Positions 16,401 to 52,484 of a DNA stretch of 64,000 nt are shown here, piece by piece. The notes below the pieces were generated by a model that saw nothing but the letters and a program-made list of their open reading frames with translations, was not told where the DNA came from and made no database searches. Source of the stretch: Nitrospira sp. KM1 (GTDB lineage Bacteria; Nitrospirota; Nitrospiria; Nitrospirales; Nitrospiraceae). The stretch lies in contig NZ_AP022671.1 of NCBI RefSeq assembly GCF_011405515.1, forward strand, positions 744,001 to 808,000, written 5' to 3'. A program made the translations under genes and the position numbers. Each line of letters starts with the position of its first letter. Position 1 is the first letter of the stretch.

Positions 16401-16870
16401 CCGTCAAATCCATGCTGACGAAGAAAGGCGACCGGATGGCCTATGTCAGCTTGGAAGATCTTCAGGGAACAGTTGAGGTCATCATTTTCCCCGACCTGTT
16501 CAAAACCTCCGGAGACCTCATCACGCCCGAACGGCTCGTCCGGATCACAGGGACGATCGATCGTGGAGACAAAGGCACGAAATTACGGGGCAGTAAGATC
16601 GAGCCTTTGGCTGAAGTTCAAACTCAGTCGATCAAACGCGTGCATATTCGTCTCTCGGATGCTCCGGAAGTCGCGGGACAGCTGCCGCGACTTCTCGACA
16701 TCTTCAAGCGGCATCCCGGCGCTACGGCCGTGTCTCTTACGTTCCGGACCGAAACAGCGCTCGAGGCAGACACGGCTCCCCTGCCGAACCTATCAGTTAC
16801 GGCCAGCGAGCACTTCGTCGCCGATGTTGAAGAAGTACTAGGCAAGGGGGCCCTATCTTTGGTATCGTAG
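13409..16870 (+). CDS. dnaE: DNA polymerase III alpha subunit
   Basis: This is the catalytic subunit of the replicative polymerase. Its 1153 residues match the DnaE1 length. The N-terminal PHP domain begins FVHLHLHTQFSLLDGA (His7, 9 and 11). The palm carries the catalytic aspartates in LPDIDMDF at about residues 404-411. The YGFNKSHAAAYAVV helix and a C-terminal OB-fold (VKLCGIIATVKSMLTKKGDRMAYVSLED, about 990-1030) are intact. No obvious Shine-Dalgarno precedes the ATG, but the N-terminus aligns with the family. accA follows 65 bases downstream, an association found in many bacteria. Confidence 0.98.
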   Translation: MTSSFVHLHLHTQFSLLDGANQIEPLVQQIKSFGQPAVAMTDHGNMFGAIEFYRKAKDAGIKPIIGCEAYMAPGSRLNKDGSKLAHNDYYHLILLARNLTGYQNLIKLVSKAYLEGFYYKPRMDKEILKDHHEGLIALSGCLSGEIPYLIGQKDMAGAMAVAGEFQEIFGKDHFYLEVQANGLEHQRIANAGLIEIHKKLGIPLAGTNDCHYLKKEDSRPHDLMLCLQTGKTISDPNRMKFDTDELYVKSTEEIAPAFAEFPDAVANTCRIADHCDLELALNKTYLPQYKVPEGYTRESYLEHLATEGLRSRLKERPGTAPSATYELRLREELMVICSMGFAGYFLIVWDIIRFARSQGIPVGPGRGSAAGSLVAYALRITDLDPLVYTLLFERFLNPERISLPDIDMDFCMDRRGEVINYVVDKYGSDHVAQIITFGTLGAKAAIRDVGRVLEMPYAEADKVAKLVPTQLNITLQQALDTEPRLRELVETDIKVRELMTIAQSLEGLARHASTHAAGVVISEGPLTDHVPLYKGANDEIVTQYSMGDVEKIGLVKFDFLGLKTLTMIRRAEMLINQVRPNQPPLAVDQLPFDDPKTFALLASGKTTGVFQLESSGMRDLLTGFKPDRFEDIIAIIALYRPGPMDLIPDFIKRKQGKVPITYETPELEPILKDTYGVIVYQEQVMAIANTVAGFSLGQADILRRAMGKKKPEEMEKLRIKFLEGAKKNKTPEKKAEKLYELIQKFAGYGFNKSHAAAYAVVCYQTGYLKAHYPTEFMAALMTSDMGNQDKIVGYFTECRDLGIKVLGPDVNVSQKDFAVADGAIRFGLAAIKNVGEGAVESVLEIRTGGAAFVSFFDFCRRVDLHKVNKRMLEGLIKAGAFDSTGAKRSQLMACLDQAIEDGAAAQRERELGQTSIFGEVLHAQGEGSHAATPQLPPIPEWDQPQRLKYERELTGFYITAHPLARYEATIHALASATTAGLTELSDGKEVKLCGIIATVKSMLTKKGDRMAYVSLEDLQGTVEVIIFPDLFKTSGDLITPERLVRITGTIDRGDKGTKLRGSKIEPLAEVQTQSIKRVHIRLSDAPEVAGQLPRLLDIFKRHPGATAVSLTFRTETALEADTAPLPNLSVTASEHFVADVEEVLGKGALSLVS

Positions 16871-19224: not shown

Positions 19225-19662
19225 TCACCTCTTGGCCGACACCGCAAGATACCATTTCGGCTTCATCCGCCCGAAGTCCGTCCTGACGTGGACCTTCAAC
19301 GATTTTTTCGAATCCAGTACGCATGTACAATCGCTGGTCCTGACAAACACGACCCAATGCCAGTACGGTCGACCATCCTTGACATGCCACTTGATTGCCA
19401 AGAGCGCCATCGGAGGCAGCCGCTGCCACGAACGAAATGGTCGCGGCATTGCCGATCGATATCCAAATCGCGTGAGCAAACGCCGCACGGGTTGGGTGTC
19501 AGACCACAATCGCGCATCTGCCGCGGAAATCCCCAATTCATCTGCAGCCGTCTTGGCCGCGGCATAAGACACGCCGGCAACGGCTGCCACACTCGCGATC
19601 CCGCAGCCGGTCCGTTCACACTGGACGACAGAATTGCGACAGAGGCTCTTGGGTCGGTTCAT
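19225..19662 (-). CDS. C39-like cysteine peptidase-fold protein
   Basis: The 145-residue protein resembles the papain-like C39 peptidase family. Gln14 and Cys20 (QCERTGCGIASVAAVAG) fit the oxyanion Gln and nucleophile Cys, followed by the helix after the nucleophile. His in YWHWVVF and Asp in CVLDS supply the rest of the triad. There is no signal peptide, transporter or ATPase domain, so it is a free-standing domain and not a bacteriocin exporter. It overlaps the antiporter stop by four bases (ATGA), implying coupled expression. The substrate is unknown. Confidence 0.75.
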   Translation of the reverse strand: MNRPKSLCRNSVVQCERTGCGIASVAAVAGVSYAAAKTAADELGISAADARLWSDTQPVRRLLTRFGYRSAMPRPFRSWQRLPPMALLAIKWHVKDGRPYWHWVVFVRTSDCTCVLDSKKSLKVHVRTDFGRMKPKWYLAVSAKR

Positions 19663-21278
19663 CGATGACGTGATCTTTCAACGCGGCGTTCTCCGACACC
19701 GAGATGAAGAGCCGCCACGTCGAGCTCCTGTTCCAGATGATGCAACACGTCATCGCTGATCGTCCCGTCATTGCGCAGCCCGACGAGCGCCAGACGCTCC
19801 GCGGTCATGGTTTCATGTTGTAGCCGCTGAAAGGCGGCGGTCGAGTCGGCGAACACAGTGCCGTCAGCCGACGCCGCCCGTGCAAAACGTTCGAGTCTCC
19901 GGCTGTACTGCAGTTTCAGTCGTTCGACGTGCTCTGGAGCAATCCAGTCCTCGGCTCTGACCTGATCCAAGCGATTCAAGGCCGCCGTCACCGCATGTTC
20001 ACGCGCGAGACGTTCCTCTTGTTCGAGTCCGTGATCTTCCGTACGTGGCAGGAGACGGATCAGAGGCGGCAGGGACAACCCCTGAAAGACAAGAGTTGCC
20101 AGGATCACGGCAAAACTGATCAGAATAATTTCCTCACGAAATGGAAAAGGGCTTCCGGACTGCGTGGTCACCGGCAGTGCCAGCGCGGCAGCCAACGTCA
20201 CGATCCCCCGCATTCCGGTCCAAGAGACGAGAAAGACCCAGGTCCAGGGAGGCGTCGGTTCCTTCTTACGAACCGACGCGCTGAACCATCTGGGAATGAC
20301 TGCGGCAAGTGGAACCCAGATGAGACGCACGACGATGACCGTCACGCTGACCAGTGCTCCCGCTCTCAACAGAGAGCCGATCTGGTCGGGGGAAATGGCG
20401 CCCCGCAGCGCGCCCAACTGCAACCCGATGAGGATGAAAATGACGCCGTTGAGCATGAAGATGAGCAGGTCCCAGACCGCACGAGCCTGAAACCGCGTGG
20501 CAGGCGCCACCGCGTTGCTGAATGTTTGCCGTAGATGAATCCCGCCGGCCACGCACGCCAGGACAGCCGATGCATGAAGGGATTCGCTGATCACCCATGC
20601 AATGTAGGGTGACAGCAAGGTGATCGCCACCTGAGTAAAACTGTCCTCGCTATAGCACAACGCCCATCGCGTGAGGAACGACACGCCGATGCCGACCGCC
20701 GCGCCGATGATGGCCGCGTAGACGAACTGGGTGGCCGCATCTCCGATCATGAAGGTGCCGCTCGCCGCGGCTCCCACCGCCACGCGATACAGTACCAACG
20801 CCGTGGCATCGTTGACGAGACTTTCTCCCTCTAGAATCGTTACGACTCGCCGTGGAATTCCCAGTCGCTTTCCGATCGCCGTGGCAGAAACGGCATCGGG
20901 AGGCGACACAATGGCTCCGAGGGCGATTGCGGCGGCCCACTCCATCCCGGGAAACAGCATCCTGGCGACGACAGCCACCACCACGGTCGTGACCAGAACC
21001 AGTCCGACGGCCAGGAGAAAGATGGGTCTCAGATTCTGGCGAAAATCACGAAATGAAGTGAAATAGGCCGCCGCCCACAGGATCGGAGGCAGAAAAACGA
21101 GGAACACGAGGTCCGGATTGAATGTGACCGTCGGCACGCCGGGGATGATGCCCAGGACCAGTCCGCCCAGCACCAGCAAAATAGGATACGGGATCATGAT
21201 CTTCTGCGCGAGCGTCGTCAGGGCCAGAACGATGGCCAGCAGCAGGATGACGATTTCGAGTTGATGCAAATCTTCCAT
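19659..21278 (-). CDS. Na+/H+ antiporter, CPA1 family
   Basis: The 539-residue protein has about 12 hydrophobic segments spread over residues 5-415 and a soluble C-terminal tail of about 120 residues. The conserved CPA1 stretch ALGAIVSPPDAVSATAI and the EGESLVNDATALVLY segment, which holds the Asn-Asp pair typical of electroneutral exchangers, are both present. It should exchange Na+ (or K+) for H+ at the inner membrane, for pH or salt homeostasis. The tail is helical and may be regulatory. It shares an operon with the C39-like protein (ATGA overlap). Confidence 0.92.
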   Translation of the reverse strand: MEDLHQLEIVILLLAIVLALTTLAQKIMIPYPILLVLGGLVLGIIPGVPTVTFNPDLVFLVFLPPILWAAAYFTSFRDFRQNLRPIFLLAVGLVLVTTVVVAVVARMLFPGMEWAAAIALGAIVSPPDAVSATAIGKRLGIPRRVVTILEGESLVNDATALVLYRVAVGAAASGTFMIGDAATQFVYAAIIGAAVGIGVSFLTRWALCYSEDSFTQVAITLLSPYIAWVISESLHASAVLACVAGGIHLRQTFSNAVAPATRFQARAVWDLLIFMLNGVIFILIGLQLGALRGAISPDQIGSLLRAGALVSVTVIVVRLIWVPLAAVIPRWFSASVRKKEPTPPWTWVFLVSWTGMRGIVTLAAALALPVTTQSGSPFPFREEIILISFAVILATLVFQGLSLPPLIRLLPRTEDHGLEQEERLAREHAVTAALNRLDQVRAEDWIAPEHVERLKLQYSRRLERFARAASADGTVFADSTAAFQRLQHETMTAERLALVGLRNDGTISDDVLHHLEQELDVAALHLGVGERRVERSRHR

Positions 21279-30455: not shown

Positions 30456-32060
30456 TTATCCCATGTCCAGCAACACGTGCGCCGGATTCCTGTCTCTCGC
30501 GATCGTTTTCATCAGTTGATCCCCGAACAACACCACCACTCGCCCGCGCTGGTCCTTCACCAGCATCGAATTGGACGGGGCCTTGAAGGTCGCTGGATCG
30601 CCTTCCAGCCAGGCGCTACAGGTAAATCCCAATGAATCCAGAATGGTTTCGACGCGGTACTCGTGACGCAGCCGATACTGCAGCACATCGAACTGCAAAC
30701 GGCCGACCGCCGCGACCAGGGATTCGAGATCGTTCAGGCTGCGCATGATCTGCACGGTCCCTTCTTGGGCCATTTGCTCCATGCCCCTGTCGAACGCCTT
30801 GCGTTTGCCCACATCGGTCGGACGGATTCTCGCGAAAATTTCCGGTTGGAACTGCGGCAACGGCTTGTAATTGAACCCGCCTGTGACGGAGATCGTATCC
30901 CCAATGGCAAACAGGCCGGGATTGATAATCCCGATAATGTCGCCGGGAAACGCTTCTTCGACCGTGCTGCGTTCCTGGGCCACCAGGCTATGCGGTCGGG
31001 AAAGGCGGACCTCTTTCCCCAAGCGATGATGCCTGACCACCATGTCGCGTTCGAAACGGCCCGAGCAGACTCTCAAAAACGCCGTACTATCCCGGTGCTT
31101 CGGGTTCATGTTGGCCTGCAGTTTGAACACATAGGCGCTGAACGGAGTCTCGACGGGATCAATGGACACTTCCTCGCCGTTGTCCGCATCTGCCGGTCTG
31201 GCCCCAGGGGCGGGCGCAAGGGACACGAATGCATCCAGAAAGCTCTCAATACCGAAGTTGGTCAGCGCCGACGCAAAAAACACCGGCGTCACATCTCCTT
31301 CGAGAAAACGGTCGCGGGAAAACGGATTTCCCGCCACCTCCAGCAATTCCAGATCATGCCGGACGGCAGCGATCACCTCCGGCGTCACTCGTCCGCTGCC
31401 CTCCAGGTCGCGCAAGAACATGCGCGCGACATCAACCTTTGTGGCTCCGCCATGGGCGGTCCTGCTGAAAAGCTGCACACGGTCATCTGCGCGGTCCACG
31501 ATGCCGGCGAAATCACTGCCGGATCCGATCGGCCAGTTGACTGCGGCGGCATGGATATTCAGCGCCTCTTCCACTTCCGTCATGAGGTCCAACGGTGGAC
31601 GCCCCGGCAAATCCATCTTGTTCATCAGCGTCAGGACCGGAATGCGCCGCATGCGGCAGACGGCAAATAATTTACGAGTTTGCGCCTCGACGCCTTTGGC
31701 GGCATCGATCACCATGATCGCGCTGTCTGCAGCGGTCAGGGTCCGGTAGGTGTCTTCCGAAAAATCCTGGTGTCCGGGAGTATCCAGAAGATTGATCACG
31801 GCATCCTTGTATGGAAACTGCATCGCGGATGCGGTGATTGAAATACCTCGCTCCTGTTCCATGCCCATCCAATCGGATGCGGCGGTCTTGCCGCCTTTCC
31901 GCCCGCGAACCATGCCGGCGGTCCTGATGAGTCCTGAATACAACAACAATTTTTCCGTTAGCGTCGTTTTGCCCGCATCCGGGTGGCTGATAATCGCAAA
32001 CGTTCGGCGCTGCGCAGCAGCAGCGGCCAGTCCGTGTTGGAGTGCAGTGCCGGGGGTCAT
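30456..32060 (-). CDS. prfC: Peptide chain release factor 3
   Basis: RF3 is a translation GTPase that recycles RF1 and RF2. The 534-residue protein has G1 SHPDAGKTTL, the switch RGISITASAMQF, G3 DTPGHQDFSEDTYR and G4 NKMD, followed by EF-Tu-like and RF3 C-terminal domains (GRLQFDVLQYRLRHEY). ATG at 32060 aligns with the Escherichia coli N-terminus; another ATG at 32075 is in frame. Neither has a clear ribosome binding site. Confidence 0.95.
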   Translation of the reverse strand: MTPGTALQHGLAAAAAQRRTFAIISHPDAGKTTLTEKLLLYSGLIRTAGMVRGRKGGKTAASDWMGMEQERGISITASAMQFPYKDAVINLLDTPGHQDFSEDTYRTLTAADSAIMVIDAAKGVEAQTRKLFAVCRMRRIPVLTLMNKMDLPGRPPLDLMTEVEEALNIHAAAVNWPIGSGSDFAGIVDRADDRVQLFSRTAHGGATKVDVARMFLRDLEGSGRVTPEVIAAVRHDLELLEVAGNPFSRDRFLEGDVTPVFFASALTNFGIESFLDAFVSLAPAPGARPADADNGEEVSIDPVETPFSAYVFKLQANMNPKHRDSTAFLRVCSGRFERDMVVRHHRLGKEVRLSRPHSLVAQERSTVEEAFPGDIIGIINPGLFAIGDTISVTGGFNYKPLPQFQPEIFARIRPTDVGKRKAFDRGMEQMAQEGTVQIMRSLNDLESLVAAVGRLQFDVLQYRLRHEYRVETILDSLGFTCSAWLEGDPATFKAPSNSMLVKDQRGRVVVLFGDQLMKTIARDRNPAHVLLDMG

Positions 32061-32155
32061 AGCGGCGCGCAGCATACCACATTGTATCGTGCAACACGCA
32101 ATGCAACAGCGAGCCGTTCCGTCCAGGGATGGCCGGCGCGGCGGACGCTACGCAT

Positions 32156-42526: not shown

Positions 42527-42939
42527 TTAATCTTTTTCACCTTCCTTTGAAAGCAGGAACACCAACAACTTTGCCGGCTCTGTCTTACTTCCGTTTCTCG
42601 ACACCACATGAGGCCTCTTCGGGGATTCGTACCAGCTCTGCCCCGCCGTGTACGTCACAGGTTTCTCGTTCTCCGACTGCGAGACGACCGACCCTTCCAG
42701 GACATAGGCAATGACGGAGCCGGGATGGACGTGGGCACATCCGATGCCGCACCGGGAGCATATGAAACGATCAGCACCGTCGCGACCCGTCCTGCCATAT
42801 CGTCGAGCTGCTGCTTCATCAGTACGGCGGTCGATTCGTCCGCCCATGCCGCCGATTGACACATGATGAATCCGATCAGCATGGTACGGAGCCATACCTC
42901 CATCATTCCGGTCATTGAGCCGCCGTAGGACGTTCTCAT
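42527..42939 (-). pseudogene. Exported cupin-domain protein, frameshifted
   Basis: The N-terminal half (signal peptide MTGMMEVWLRTMLIGFIMCQ, then MAGRVATVLIVSYAPGAAS) is in one frame. The C-terminal half (AHVHPGSVIAYVLEGSVVSQ, then YTAGQSWYE and LVFLLSKEGEKD) is in another. A normal cupin would read YAPGAASGAHxHPGSV across the junction. The shift lies near 42738-42745 and fits loss of a single G. The start overlaps the preceding pseudogene stop as TGATG. It may be genuine decay or a sequencing error in a short homopolymer. Confidence 0.7.
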
Positions 42940-43296
42940 CAGGCGATTCCTTTCTTCGTACCCTTGTGGGACCAGTTCGCAACCCACACGACGTGCTTGC
43001 CATGTCCAGGTTTCAACTCGTACGCGAGACGCGCCTGCTCCAGAGGAAAACATCTTCTCCATGCCAACCCGAAAGACATGGGCAATCGATTACACGGTCG
43101 ATTCGAGTCAATTGAGTTCGATTCGGCTCGACAATGAAAAACGCGCCGCGATCCCGCTGCCGCTGATCCCGCCGTTCCCCGTCGGAGGCACCAGTGATGA
43201 GACGGCCGCCCTCCTTGAGAAGGTTCCAGGATCGATCTCTCGTCTCTCCCCCTTCGATGTTCGGCACGACATCCACCCTCTTGGTGCGGCTGCAAG
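42939..43296 (-). pseudogene. Remnant of a zinc-type alcohol dehydrogenase / quinone oxidoreductase
   Basis: Only the C-terminal third remains. One frame reads VDVVPNIEGGETRDRSWNLL, KEGGRLITGA and FFIVEPNRTQL, as in NADP-dependent oxidoreductases of the ADH family. A second frame then gives FPLEQARLAYELKPGHGKHV. The junction near 43047-43050 fits loss of one T in a T-run. The N-terminal two thirds, with the catalytic and nucleotide-binding regions, are absent and replaced by the end of the acetolactate-synthase-like gene. With the cupin remnant it marks a former two-gene operon. Confidence 0.75.
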
Positions 43297-48856: not shown

Positions 48857-50398
48857 ATGAACCTGCTTCTCGTTCACCCCAGTCCGTTGATGTATACCAA
48901 GATTTATCTTCGACTGGAACCACTCGGTCTCGAACTGGTCGCAGCCGCCGCCCTCCGTGCCGGGCACCGCGTCACCCTCTTGGACCTCCAAGTTGAATCT
49001 CATGACCAACTCTTCGACCTGTTGAACGATCAGAAACCGGACGCGGTCGGTTTTTCCTGCAACTACCTCGCGAACGTTCCTGAAATAATCGACCTCGTAA
49101 GAGCCATCAAACGACAACTCCCGAACACAGTCGTGTTCGTGGGAGGACACAGCGCGTCATTCGTCGCTCAAGCCATGCTCGACGATGCCGCCGGCGATAT
49201 TGACTGCGTGTTGAGAGGAGAGGGTGAAGGAGCCGTCATGGCGTTGCTTGAAGCGATTGAACAGCACCGTCCACTGACAGAAGTTCCTGGTGCATTGGCT
49301 CCAATGGGCGAAGGACCTCCACCCCAAATGATTGAGAGCCTGAATGATCTCCGCCCGGCGCGCCATCTTCTCCGGCACCGCCGAAAATATTTCATCGGCG
49401 TGCTCGACCCCTGCGCCTCGATTGAATTCACGCGAGGCTGTCCATGGGACTGTTCGTTCTGCAGCGCATGGACATTCTATGGAAGAAGCTACCGTACGGC
49501 CGCCCCGGAAATGATTGTCGAAGACCTCGCATCGATCCAAGAACCGGGCGTGTTTATTGTCGATGATGTGGCGTTTATACATGCCAAGCACGGCCTAGCC
49601 ATCGGTGAGGCGATCGCCAGACGTGGGATCAAGAAGCAATACTATCTCGAGACCCGTGGAGACGTCTTATTGCGTAATAAGGAGGTATTCCAGTTCTGGA
49701 AGACATTAGGGCTGGCCTACATGTTCATCGGCATCGAAGCGATTGATGAGGAAGGACTGACCCACTACCGCAAGCGCATCAGCATGGGTAAGAACTTTGA
49801 GGCCCTTGAATTTGCCCGCTCGCTGGGGATTACTGTGGCGATCAATCTGATTGCCGATCCTGGATGGGACCGCCGCCGTTTTGAAGTCGTCCGCCAGTGG
49901 TGCCTTGATATTCCGGAGATCGTGAACATCAGCGTCAATACTCCCTACCCGGGCACGGAAACCTGGCATACGGAAGGCCGCTGCCTCACCACGCGCGACT
50001 ACCGCCTGTTTGACATCCAACATGCAGTCCTGCCCACTTTCCTGCCGCTGCCCGAATTCTATGAGGAATTGGTCAAGACACAGCAGATACTCAATCAAAA
50101 GCACCTGGGTTGGACCGCGCTGAAATCGACGGCCCGCATTGCCGCAGGTCACCTGCTTCGAGGCCAAACGAATTTCGTGAAGATGTTATGGAAGTTTAGC
50201 AGCGTATACGATCCGGCGTTACAAATGGCAGATCATGCCCGGCCTATTCAATACCAGATGCCGTTGCCTCCGGATCATACATCCGATGTCAACGCTCAGC
50301 TCTTGTATATACATCGCGCAGAGGGTCGAAAGAGTCGCTTGTACGATGACGCGACGGAACATTTTGTGAATAGGACGCGAAGCGGCACGACCGGGTAA
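48857..50398 (+). CDS. hpnR: B12-binding radical SAM protein, probable hopanoid C-3 methylase
   Basis: AGGAGGTGGTTC before the ATG sets the start. The 513 residues have a cobalamin-binding N-terminus (MNLLLVHPSPLMYTKIYLRL, LGLELVAAA, FSCNYLANVPEIIDLV, VGGHSASF). The radical SAM cluster motif CPWDCSFC has Cys195, 199 and 202. These segments match HpnR, which adds the C-3 methyl group to hopanoids. Hopanoid synthesis genes (shc, hpnC-G) are not in the window. HpnJ or another B12-radical SAM methylase is the main alternative. Confidence 0.75.
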   Translation: MNLLLVHPSPLMYTKIYLRLEPLGLELVAAAALRAGHRVTLLDLQVESHDQLFDLLNDQKPDAVGFSCNYLANVPEIIDLVRAIKRQLPNTVVFVGGHSASFVAQAMLDDAAGDIDCVLRGEGEGAVMALLEAIEQHRPLTEVPGALAPMGEGPPPQMIESLNDLRPARHLLRHRRKYFIGVLDPCASIEFTRGCPWDCSFCSAWTFYGRSYRTAAPEMIVEDLASIQEPGVFIVDDVAFIHAKHGLAIGEAIARRGIKKQYYLETRGDVLLRNKEVFQFWKTLGLAYMFIGIEAIDEEGLTHYRKRISMGKNFEALEFARSLGITVAINLIADPGWDRRRFEVVRQWCLDIPEIVNISVNTPYPGTETWHTEGRCLTTRDYRLFDIQHAVLPTFLPLPEFYEELVKTQQILNQKHLGWTALKSTARIAAGHLLRGQTNFVKMLWKFSSVYDPALQMADHARPIQYQMPLPPDHTSDVNAQLLYIHRAEGRKSRLYDDATEHFVNRTRSGTTG

Positions 50399-50410
50399 CC
50401 AAACGTTTGT

Positions 50411-51514
50411 ATGGCAACGCTTGGCCATAAGCTGTACGATCGAGGCACTGCCGAAGTCGTTCTTGACTCGGTCTCAGTCATTAATAACGGCTCGGTCATC
50501 CTCCGGTTCAGAGAGGTGGAGGTCGAATGGTCCAATGGCGACCAGTCATCTCTTCAGCCCATCATCGATTGCCTTCAACGGGCTGGAGCGAGGCCGCACG
50601 ACGGAAGACCAAAATTGTTCCGTGCACTTTCCCTGTTCTATGACCGCCCGAGGTCGGCACCGGCAGATGCCCCGGTCATCGAACATCTTCGGCAAGATTT
50701 GAATCGACAATGCTACGTCCTCAAGCAATGTGATCCCGGTGTTCGTCTAGAACGCGCCCCAGTTGACCTGCACCATATGCGAGTGACAGTCAGGCGCATG
50801 CGGGCCGTGCTGAAGTCCGCCCGCCAGATCGTGGCCACTGTCTGGGTCGAACCCTTATTAAGCGGTCTTCAATGGCTGGGGCACATCCTTGGACATGGAC
50901 GGGATCTCGACGTGCAAATCGAATACTTTGTTCGGGAAATGCAACAGCTAAAGGGCGCCGACCGCCGTCCGATCGAGCGATTTCTCGCTCGTCTTCAAGG
51001 GGAGCGCGCTCGCTATCAGCAGAAACTGATCGACGAGATGAACAGTGCGCGATATCTGGGATTTCTGACCACGTTGCAAAAATCCGCAAACGACCCGGCT
51101 GTCGTTGATCCGGAGTACAGTCCTGCCGACCTGGCACGGCGGCAGTTTCGGAAGCTCAAACAAATCGTGAATAATCTCAGAGCATCTCCCTCGGACAAAG
51201 ATCTCCATCGAGTGAGGATACGTGCGAAACGGGTCCGGTATGCCGCCGAGTTGGTCAAGGCCTGCGATCGCAAACGCATATCCCGGTTTGTGAAGGCTGC
51301 GAAACGATTCCAAGAGCTGTTGGGAACACACCAGGATGCCGTCCTCGCAGAACAGTACATCTCTGATGTACTGTGACACGAGACGGGCAAACACTTGGCG
51401 GTTACGGCGGGTCTTCTGGTCGCCCGAGCACGGCAGCGGCGAACCGAAGCGCGTGAGCGGTTTTCCCTGGAATGGAAACGGTTCAAGAAAAAAGGCGGAC
51501 AGCTATGGAAATAA
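50411..51514 (+). pseudogene. CYTH-CHAD protein, N-terminally truncated and with an in-frame stop
   Basis: The ORF starts at 50411 with only the second half of a CYTH domain (TAEVVLDSVSVINNGSVILR and EVEVEWSNGD). The CHAD domain follows (LHHMRVTVRRMRAVLKSAR, LGHILGHGRDLDVQ, LHRVRIRAKRVRYAAELVK and LGTHQDAVLA). TGA at 51374-51376 cuts the CHAD domain; the same frame continues to TAA at 51512 with AGLLVARARQRRTEARERF, which is the expected end of CHAD. There is no ribosome binding site. Both the missing N-terminus and the nonsense codon point to decay. Confidence 0.8.
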
Positions 51515-51834
51515 TACAATTACGGCTGATGTCGCCAGGTGTATTAATTCTCTTCATAATGCTGTCTGTCGCTGCCTCCCAAGCAGGAGAGAAGCAAGCG
51601 ACTCTGGTGGTCGATGCGACTCAAGGGCCGTTGCCGGCCGTAAAGGATCAAGCTGCCCGGGCCAGGAAATCCGGAGCTGCCTCCGTGGCGGTTAAATTGG
51701 AAAATACCTCTCAGCTCCAGGATCCTCAGTTGCTTCCACTGATCGAGAAGGAAGTCGCTCATATGCTTGTGAAAGAAGGCTTCATACCGGCGCAGATATC
51801 GTTTCATCATTGCGCTGAAACCTGCCCCAAGTGA
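51505..51834 (+). CDS. Small exported hypothetical protein
   Basis: From the ATG at 51505 the product has 109 residues with a signal peptide (about 1-26, LMSPGVLILFIMLSVAASQAG). The mature part is a mixed alpha/beta sequence (ATLVVDATQGPLPAVKDQAA, GAASVAVKLEN) ending HHCAETCPK. No family was recognised. Its start overlaps the read-through end of the CHAD remnant. An in-frame ATG at 51472 is less likely. Confidence 0.6.
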   Translation: MEIIQLRLMSPGVLILFIMLSVAASQAGEKQATLVVDATQGPLPAVKDQAARARKSGAASVAVKLENTSQLQDPQLLPLIEKEVAHMLVKEGFIPAQISFHHCAETCPK

Positions 51835-51843
51835 CAATACCGT

Positions 51844-52484
51844 TCAGCGTGGCTGCAAATCACGTCCAAACAGTGCGCTCTTAAAGAGCCTCACCTGCAT
51901 CGTTTCAACGTCAAGATTGGGGATATCTCCACTTGATTTCGTCTTTGTAGTTCTCGAACACGCCAGGGCCTTCAGGGTAATACCGTCAGATCGACGGCTC
52001 CTTGTCACAGTCCAACCAAAATGGCCGATGCACACGAGTTCTCCGGCTTGACTGTCGAACGTACCGCCGACCGGTTGGCCGTGATCGATCAATGTCGATC
52101 GGCTCGCGATTCCGACCTTTGTACGAAACGTTGATTCGGCAACGTCAATCTCGTACCGAGTCAGTGCATAGCTGCCTGGTTCAAGCGCCAAGACATAGTG
52201 TCTCGGCTGTTGTTCCGTGTAATGGGCCGATCCCTCAATCACAACCTCCGTCACTGCATCTGCCTTACCTTGATCTCGTTGGCAGGCTTCCCCCACTCGC
52301 CGATATAGTAATCCTTGGACTTCACCCCGATTTCTGATCGACGGGCCGCATCAAATATAATTCCCACCGCTGTTCTAATGTCCGAAAACATCCTGCCAAG
52401 AGGATCAGGTATATGAGCGCCATACAGACCAACGGCATAGACCCGCTTCATAGGGGACTTCCGAAAATTGATCTGCGCATTCAT
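51844..52484 (-). pseudogene. Unrecognised protein, probably split by a frameshift
   Basis: Two frames look like one gene. The first (from about 52451 or 52484 to 52251) has DYYIGEWGKPANEIKVRQMQ. The second (about 52264 to 51844) has TEVVIEGSAHYTEQ, YVLALEPGSYALTRYEI and GELVCIGHFGWTVTRS. WG-x-P-x-x-EI-x-VRQ followed by LEPGxYxL resembles small beta-rich exported proteins. The junction is near 52255-52265. It may be a real frameshift or two small genes; no signal peptide is seen on the first part. Confidence 0.45.

Follow-up and report, generated by a model that had tools for sequence, protein, structure and literature searches.

The window, a 64,000-nucleotide stretch of the single-contig Nitrospira sp. 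KM1 genome (G000:C1:744001-808000; 4,509,223 bases, estimated completeness 99.99%), contains an intact gene for the hopanoid C-3 methylase, hpnR, followed directly by a frame related to CYTH-CHAD proteins (Table 1). The hpnR gene ends with TAA at 50396-50398; its start was picked by eye from AGGAGG, which resembles a ribosome-binding site. Twelve bases separate this stop from the ATG (50411-50413) of the CYTH-CHAD-like frame, which is cut by TGA at 51374 and then runs on in the same frame to TAA at 51512, all as placed by the first-pass annotation. Since each of the other five frames across the CYTH-CHAD span holds 7-13 stops, the open frame is not due to chance, and there is no frameshift over its 366 codons. 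The lack of a ribosome-binding site, also pointed out earlier, is true but weak evidence, as a crude motif scan found the motif at only 4 of 17 other window genes, whose own starts are unconfirmed. The 12-base gap contains a perfect palindrome, CAAACGTTTG (50400-50409), the only exact copy in the window.

Table 1. Features of the hpnR/CYTH-CHAD region (coordinates are positions in the window)
Feature	Coordinates	Strand	Evidence or remark
hpnR, hopanoid C-3 methylase, intact	48857..50398	+	NCBIfam TIGR04367, E 5.9e-266, 882.6 bits; directly 5' of the remnant
Junction, from the hpnR stop to the first clear CYTH-CHAD-like codons	50399..50448	+	DNA comparison with four intact open frames; palindrome
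Remnant CYTH-CHAD frame, 321 codons (C-terminal quarter of CYTH; CHAD lacking the final helix)	50411..51376	+	Sequence, Pfam, alignment, models
Perfect inverted repeat, 10-bp arms, 3-nt loop; last base is the T of TGA	51352..51374	+	Repeat search
In-frame nonsense codon TGA	51374..51376	+	AAA, AAA, GCG and GAG here in the four closest orthologues
CHAD tail 3' of the TGA, 45 codons plus TAA (51512-51514); final helix in intact orthologues	51377..51514	+	Homology and G001 model
Lipoprotein-like neighbour relic, frame-changing homology, TGA at 51988-51986	51847..52438	-	Open frames in five relatives; window frames by eye

Orthologues were sought in 61 genomes and then in 175 genomes of the family, the window's own counted among the 175. 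The closest uninterrupted frames encode 508 (G005, 52% identity), 513 (G001, 53%), 512 (G021, 51%) and 511 (G008, 47%) residues; two of these genomes belong to the window's genus and the others to two further genera. None has an internal stop, and the comparison with the full gene in relatives that the first-pass annotation had proposed thus sets intact orthologues against disabling lesions in the window copy. Matches at E<=1e-20 occur in 85 of the 175 family genomes and in 58 of the 114 good ones (completeness of 90% or more, contamination of 5% or less); its distribution is thus patchy and the gene dispensable. Within the genus, 5 of 7 genomes, KM1 included, have any match at E<=0.001, the one in G006 being a more distant copy (38%) placed elsewhere in the tree. 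One of the 85 genomes, G119, from a different genus of the family, holds only a CHAD relic with internal stops (L104, G119:C29:294500-300500). A candidate split or broken copy in G097 was rejected, as it proved to be a single open frame of 604 residues. KM1 itself has a paralogue (G000:C1:2365103-2366026; 45% identical), a 507-aa open frame without a stop that contains both Pfam domains, CYTH then CHAD, in the order common to it, G001 and G005. The suggestion that a polyphosphate-linked protein was lost from this lineage therefore holds for the present copy but was overstated, because the paralogue remains; a role for polyphosphate, if any, can rest on it. A search of genome contigs for related loci gave one distant actinobacterial match, which was not useful, all matches to 49 plasmid records were below 60% identity, and none of the papers searched mentions Nitrospira together with the CHAD domain.

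What the two lesions remove can be read from alignments and predicted structures. As modelled (mean pLDDT 86.9), the G001 orthologue has eight CYTH strands (22-171) and a last CHAD helix at 458-497, a block with pLDDT 87-96 from residue 461 on. In the window copy the first ~140 residues are missing and the 3' end of hpnR stands in their place. The frame does start within the CYTH domain, as first described, but roughly a quarter of that domain is left rather than half: the Pfam CYTH match of G001 spans 26-185, and only ~residues 144-185 are kept. Six of the eight CYTH strands are thereby lost and the last two remain. The missing part includes E26, E28 and K30, nearly invariant on the CYTH side of the orthologue, which we take to be the ExExK-type motif of CYTH (triphosphate tunnel metalloenzyme). 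The window protein has neither this N-terminal motif nor a match to Pfam CYTH (PF01928) at E<=1, whereas Pfam CHAD (PF05235) covers its residues 103-315 (E 1.5e-44, 153.1 bits against a cut-off of 25.6, profile 9-225 of 228). The column of the TGA corresponds to orthologue residue 453, just before the final helix, so the stop deletes this 40-residue helix together with the nearly invariant G465, R470, R474 and W497.

The model of the 321-residue product (pLDDT 77.2) is poor in the leftover CYTH strands (block means 41-65) and ends at a helix spanning 287-320, without two complete four-helix bundles. It resembles CHAD crystal structures with TM scores of 0.57-0.65 for the six structures matched at E<=0.001, among which 6qva is the best (E 4.2e-07), and its helical bundle fold is like that of stand-alone CHAD proteins such as CtCHAD (3e0s, 6qv7, 6qva). 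However, CtCHAD covers most of the tail helix, while the window product ends before it. As CtCHAD 292 aligns to orthologue residue 480 (of 498), the tail is part of the CHAD domain, although the Pfam model ends before it. The expectation that the end of a CHAD protein lies 3' of the TGA is borne out by real homology: tail identity is 24/45, 21/45 and 22/45 (47-53%) to G005, G001 and G021, compared with 162, 163 and 159 of 310 (51-53%) in the body, and 18/45 and 19/45 to G008 and the paralogue (body 144 and 134 of 310). Relative to CYTH-CHAD proteins of the YgiF / phosin type (PF01928 plus PF05235), the window copy thus has a CHAD of the same family but is missing some three quarters of CYTH as well as the last helix of CHAD.

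No detached front half was found, since in the KM1 genome the 154 front residues of the G001 orthologue match only the paralogue (E<=1), which is also the only match of the CYTH profile at the same threshold. A remnant of the middle of CYTH between 50399 and 50448, where the first nine residues had been aligned with orthologue FDTLDHCLA, was rejected: compared with the first 480 bases of four intact open frames, the junction DNA scored no better than shuffles (fractions 0.972, 0.966, 0.492, 0.224). The hpnR gene occurs at E<=1e-100 in 9 of 36 relatives, with copies 72-78% identical. In the genomes other than KM1 that have both genes (G001, G005, G006, G017), the two sit on separate contigs or have more than 200 kb between them. 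In G005 and G004, hpnR is located between homologues of window genes 30456-32075 (RF3-type) and 19659-21278 (Na/H exchanger). In the window, ~17 kb separate the RF3-type gene from hpnR, and the stretch is thus rearranged relative to G004 and G005. None of 13 loci examined (eight around CYTH-CHAD, the KM1 paralogue included, and five around hpnR) has the two genes together; L051 and L052 of this neighbourhood set are short contigs, and L100, another region, lies outside the 13. Because hpnR lies elsewhere and apart from CYTH-CHAD in the relatives checked, the best reading of the junction is an inferred rearrangement in this lineage.

The neighbour downstream is broken as well. Homologues of its minus-strand portion 51847-52296 are single open frames of 216-246 residues in 5 of 60 relatives (G001, G002, G004, G005, G050), while in the window copy, traced by eye, the homologous sequence shifts frame, one of its pieces contains the TGA, and a start resembling a signal peptide (52438) falls outside the main frame. 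The 50.4-52.4 kb interval is a small decaying patch beside the relocated hpnR. On the plus strand, a small ORF at 51472-51834 begins with a signal-peptide-like segment (by eye) and continues with a body like EF-Tu ~99-166 (NCBIfam E 9.7e-08). The sole similarly short protein among 36 relatives is that of G001 (open frame of 131 aa, 55%), and the remaining matches lie in frames of 318-517 aa that are apparently EF-Tu genes; this ORF and the G001 protein possibly form a family of short EF-Tu-like fragments. Elsewhere in the window, overlapping minus-strand ORFs at 42527-43295 show a cupin match limited to residues 90-148 of the first, which may indicate a wrong start or frame, or a damaged gene.

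Sequence conservation bears on the age of the damage. The alignment comprises 42 rows, which are the best loci rather than every match, and the tree 39 of them, L026, L035 and L038 being omitted as near-duplicate or shortened. The window copy groups with G005 and G001 (97/90) and then with G021 (100/100), although the tree program flags it among the long rows, whose placement is less sure. Its end branch measures 0.70, against distances of 0.62 and 0.75 between the shared node and the two sisters. Where 90% or more of the other rows agree on a residue, the window copy differs in 12 of 86 columns; the figures are 17/90 for G005, 17/90 for G001 and 10/89 for G021, and 0-10 of 85-90 for six more rows. 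Relative to orthologues there is thus no clear excess of changes such as relaxed selection would leave. Of the 32 columns conserved in 98% or more of the rows, 31 are kept. The tail is slightly less alike than the body in 4 of 5 comparisons, and the third-position share of changes is a little lower in the tail in all five (0.50, 0.47 and 0.41 for the three closest, against 0.52, 0.51 and 0.50 in the body). Such values would be expected after long constraint with no more than a brief release from it at the end, although 45 codons are no proof. Because conservation of the tail is close to that of the body and the branch shows no acceleration, the gene appears to have been constrained until recently, and the well-kept reading frame likewise suggests that decay is recent.

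How the TGA arose may be indicated by the inverted repeat at whose edge it lies. Repeats with arms of at least 10 bp (loop 0-12) occur eight times in the window, whereas 20 simulated sequences have 0.95 on average and never more than 4. Some of the eight, judged by eye, are intergenic and terminator-like, and at least two others are intragenic (16667-16694, 20252-20279). In 200,000 simulations, such a repeat ended no more than 3 nt from a random TGA 27 times; the test was chosen post hoc, and the window is richer in repeats than the simulation. The right arm encodes Val at a position that is Phe, Leu or Tyr in each of the 41 other rows, and the loop encodes Ser where 35 of the 41 have Arg. The 17-base core of the repeat is found exactly in 4 of 153 loci, all covering the same place of the KM1 genome. 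The repeat was also considered as a recurring operator; this was rejected, as at up to three mismatches it has one place in the window. Tentatively, the TGA could have been born in a single template switch (quasipalindrome), in which the upstream ACAGTACATC was copied as its complement and the right arm was rewritten across four codons, leaving a perfect 23-bp inverted repeat with TGA at its edge. A single switch of this kind would account for both the right arm and the stop, but not for the Ser of the loop. Chance or a regulatory site could instead have given rise to the inverted repeat.

The remnant is very probably a CYTH-CHAD gene that became a pseudogene recently. That this copy has been lost finds good support in the intact orthologues, the two lesions and the broken neighbour. 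Bacterial pseudogenes can form by truncation and nonsense mutation, and the locus is like them in its 5' loss, its internal stop, its intact orthologues and paralogue and its broken neighbour, with no essential difference. In sister genomes the intact gene encodes a tunnel (CYTH) domain followed by the helical CHAD domain. A lineage-specific rearrangement would then have set hpnR against the middle of the gene, with loss of promoter, start and tunnel motif, and the TGA would have appeared by mutation before or after this event, perhaps by template-switch copying in an imperfect inverted repeat. Any 321-residue product would need reinitiation after hpnR. Such a product is nevertheless the premise of the main competing explanation, in which the gene has shed its CYTH half and works as a stand-alone CHAD protein predicted to bind polyphosphate. 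The nearly full Pfam CHAD match, the absence of frameshifts and the conserved columns retained would be compatible with a shortened protein in use, as would the resemblance of the model to CHAD crystal structures. Moreover, two reports describe stand-alone CHAD proteins and the CHAD domain alone as enough for polyphosphate binding (PMC6537752, PMC10892726). However, the TGA removes the entire last helix with its nearly invariant residues, the leftover CYTH strands are poorly modelled, no ribosome-binding site is seen and the neighbour is broken too, which makes a working protein improbable.

Explanations that dispose of the stop itself fare worse. The nearly unscathed tail could be taken to mean that the TGA is a sequencing error in a shortened but working CHAD gene, yet the genome is a single, almost complete contig and both the front truncation and the broken neighbour stand in any case, so an error is very unlikely. 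The first-pass annotation had raised an unusual readthrough, by which the product would reach the TAA at 51512-51514. The conserved tail, the frame open to the TAA and a hairpin overlapping the TGA (z -2.64; 4 of 200 shuffles fold equally well) are what such a reading can call on. Bacterial SECIS elements lie downstream, however, whereas this hairpin is 5' of the TGA, at a place where the ribosome would unfold it during translation. Neither tRNA-Sec nor SelB was found in the genome over the cut-off, which gives no support to selenoprotein synthesis or UGA recoding. For tRNA-Sec, 150 of 609 candidates were scored, and all 12 sub-threshold matches fall on ordinary tRNAs; for SelB, none of 8 matches in the genome passed, while a control search passed in 2 of 14 genomes. 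None of 43 tRNA-family matches, each with its anticodon read, would decode UGA, the sole 'tga' anticodon belonging to a tRNA-Ser that reads UCA; this list, which is without tRNA-Ile GAT or tRNA-Ala TGC, may be incomplete. TGA is the stop of 16 of the 33 window genes checked, the 41 other alignment rows (frames read to their first stop) all extend past the TGA column, and the CYTH front is absent regardless. Readthrough is hence scarcely credible.

The pseudogene reading has practical consequences. A gene caller will probably give a 321-aa CHAD protein at this locus; such a product is not likely to function as a CYTH-CHAD enzyme, and the annotation should be corrected. If the stop arose by template switching, it would be a natural example of this type of mutation killing a bacterial gene. 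Polyphosphate-related inferences for the organism should rest on the paralogue.
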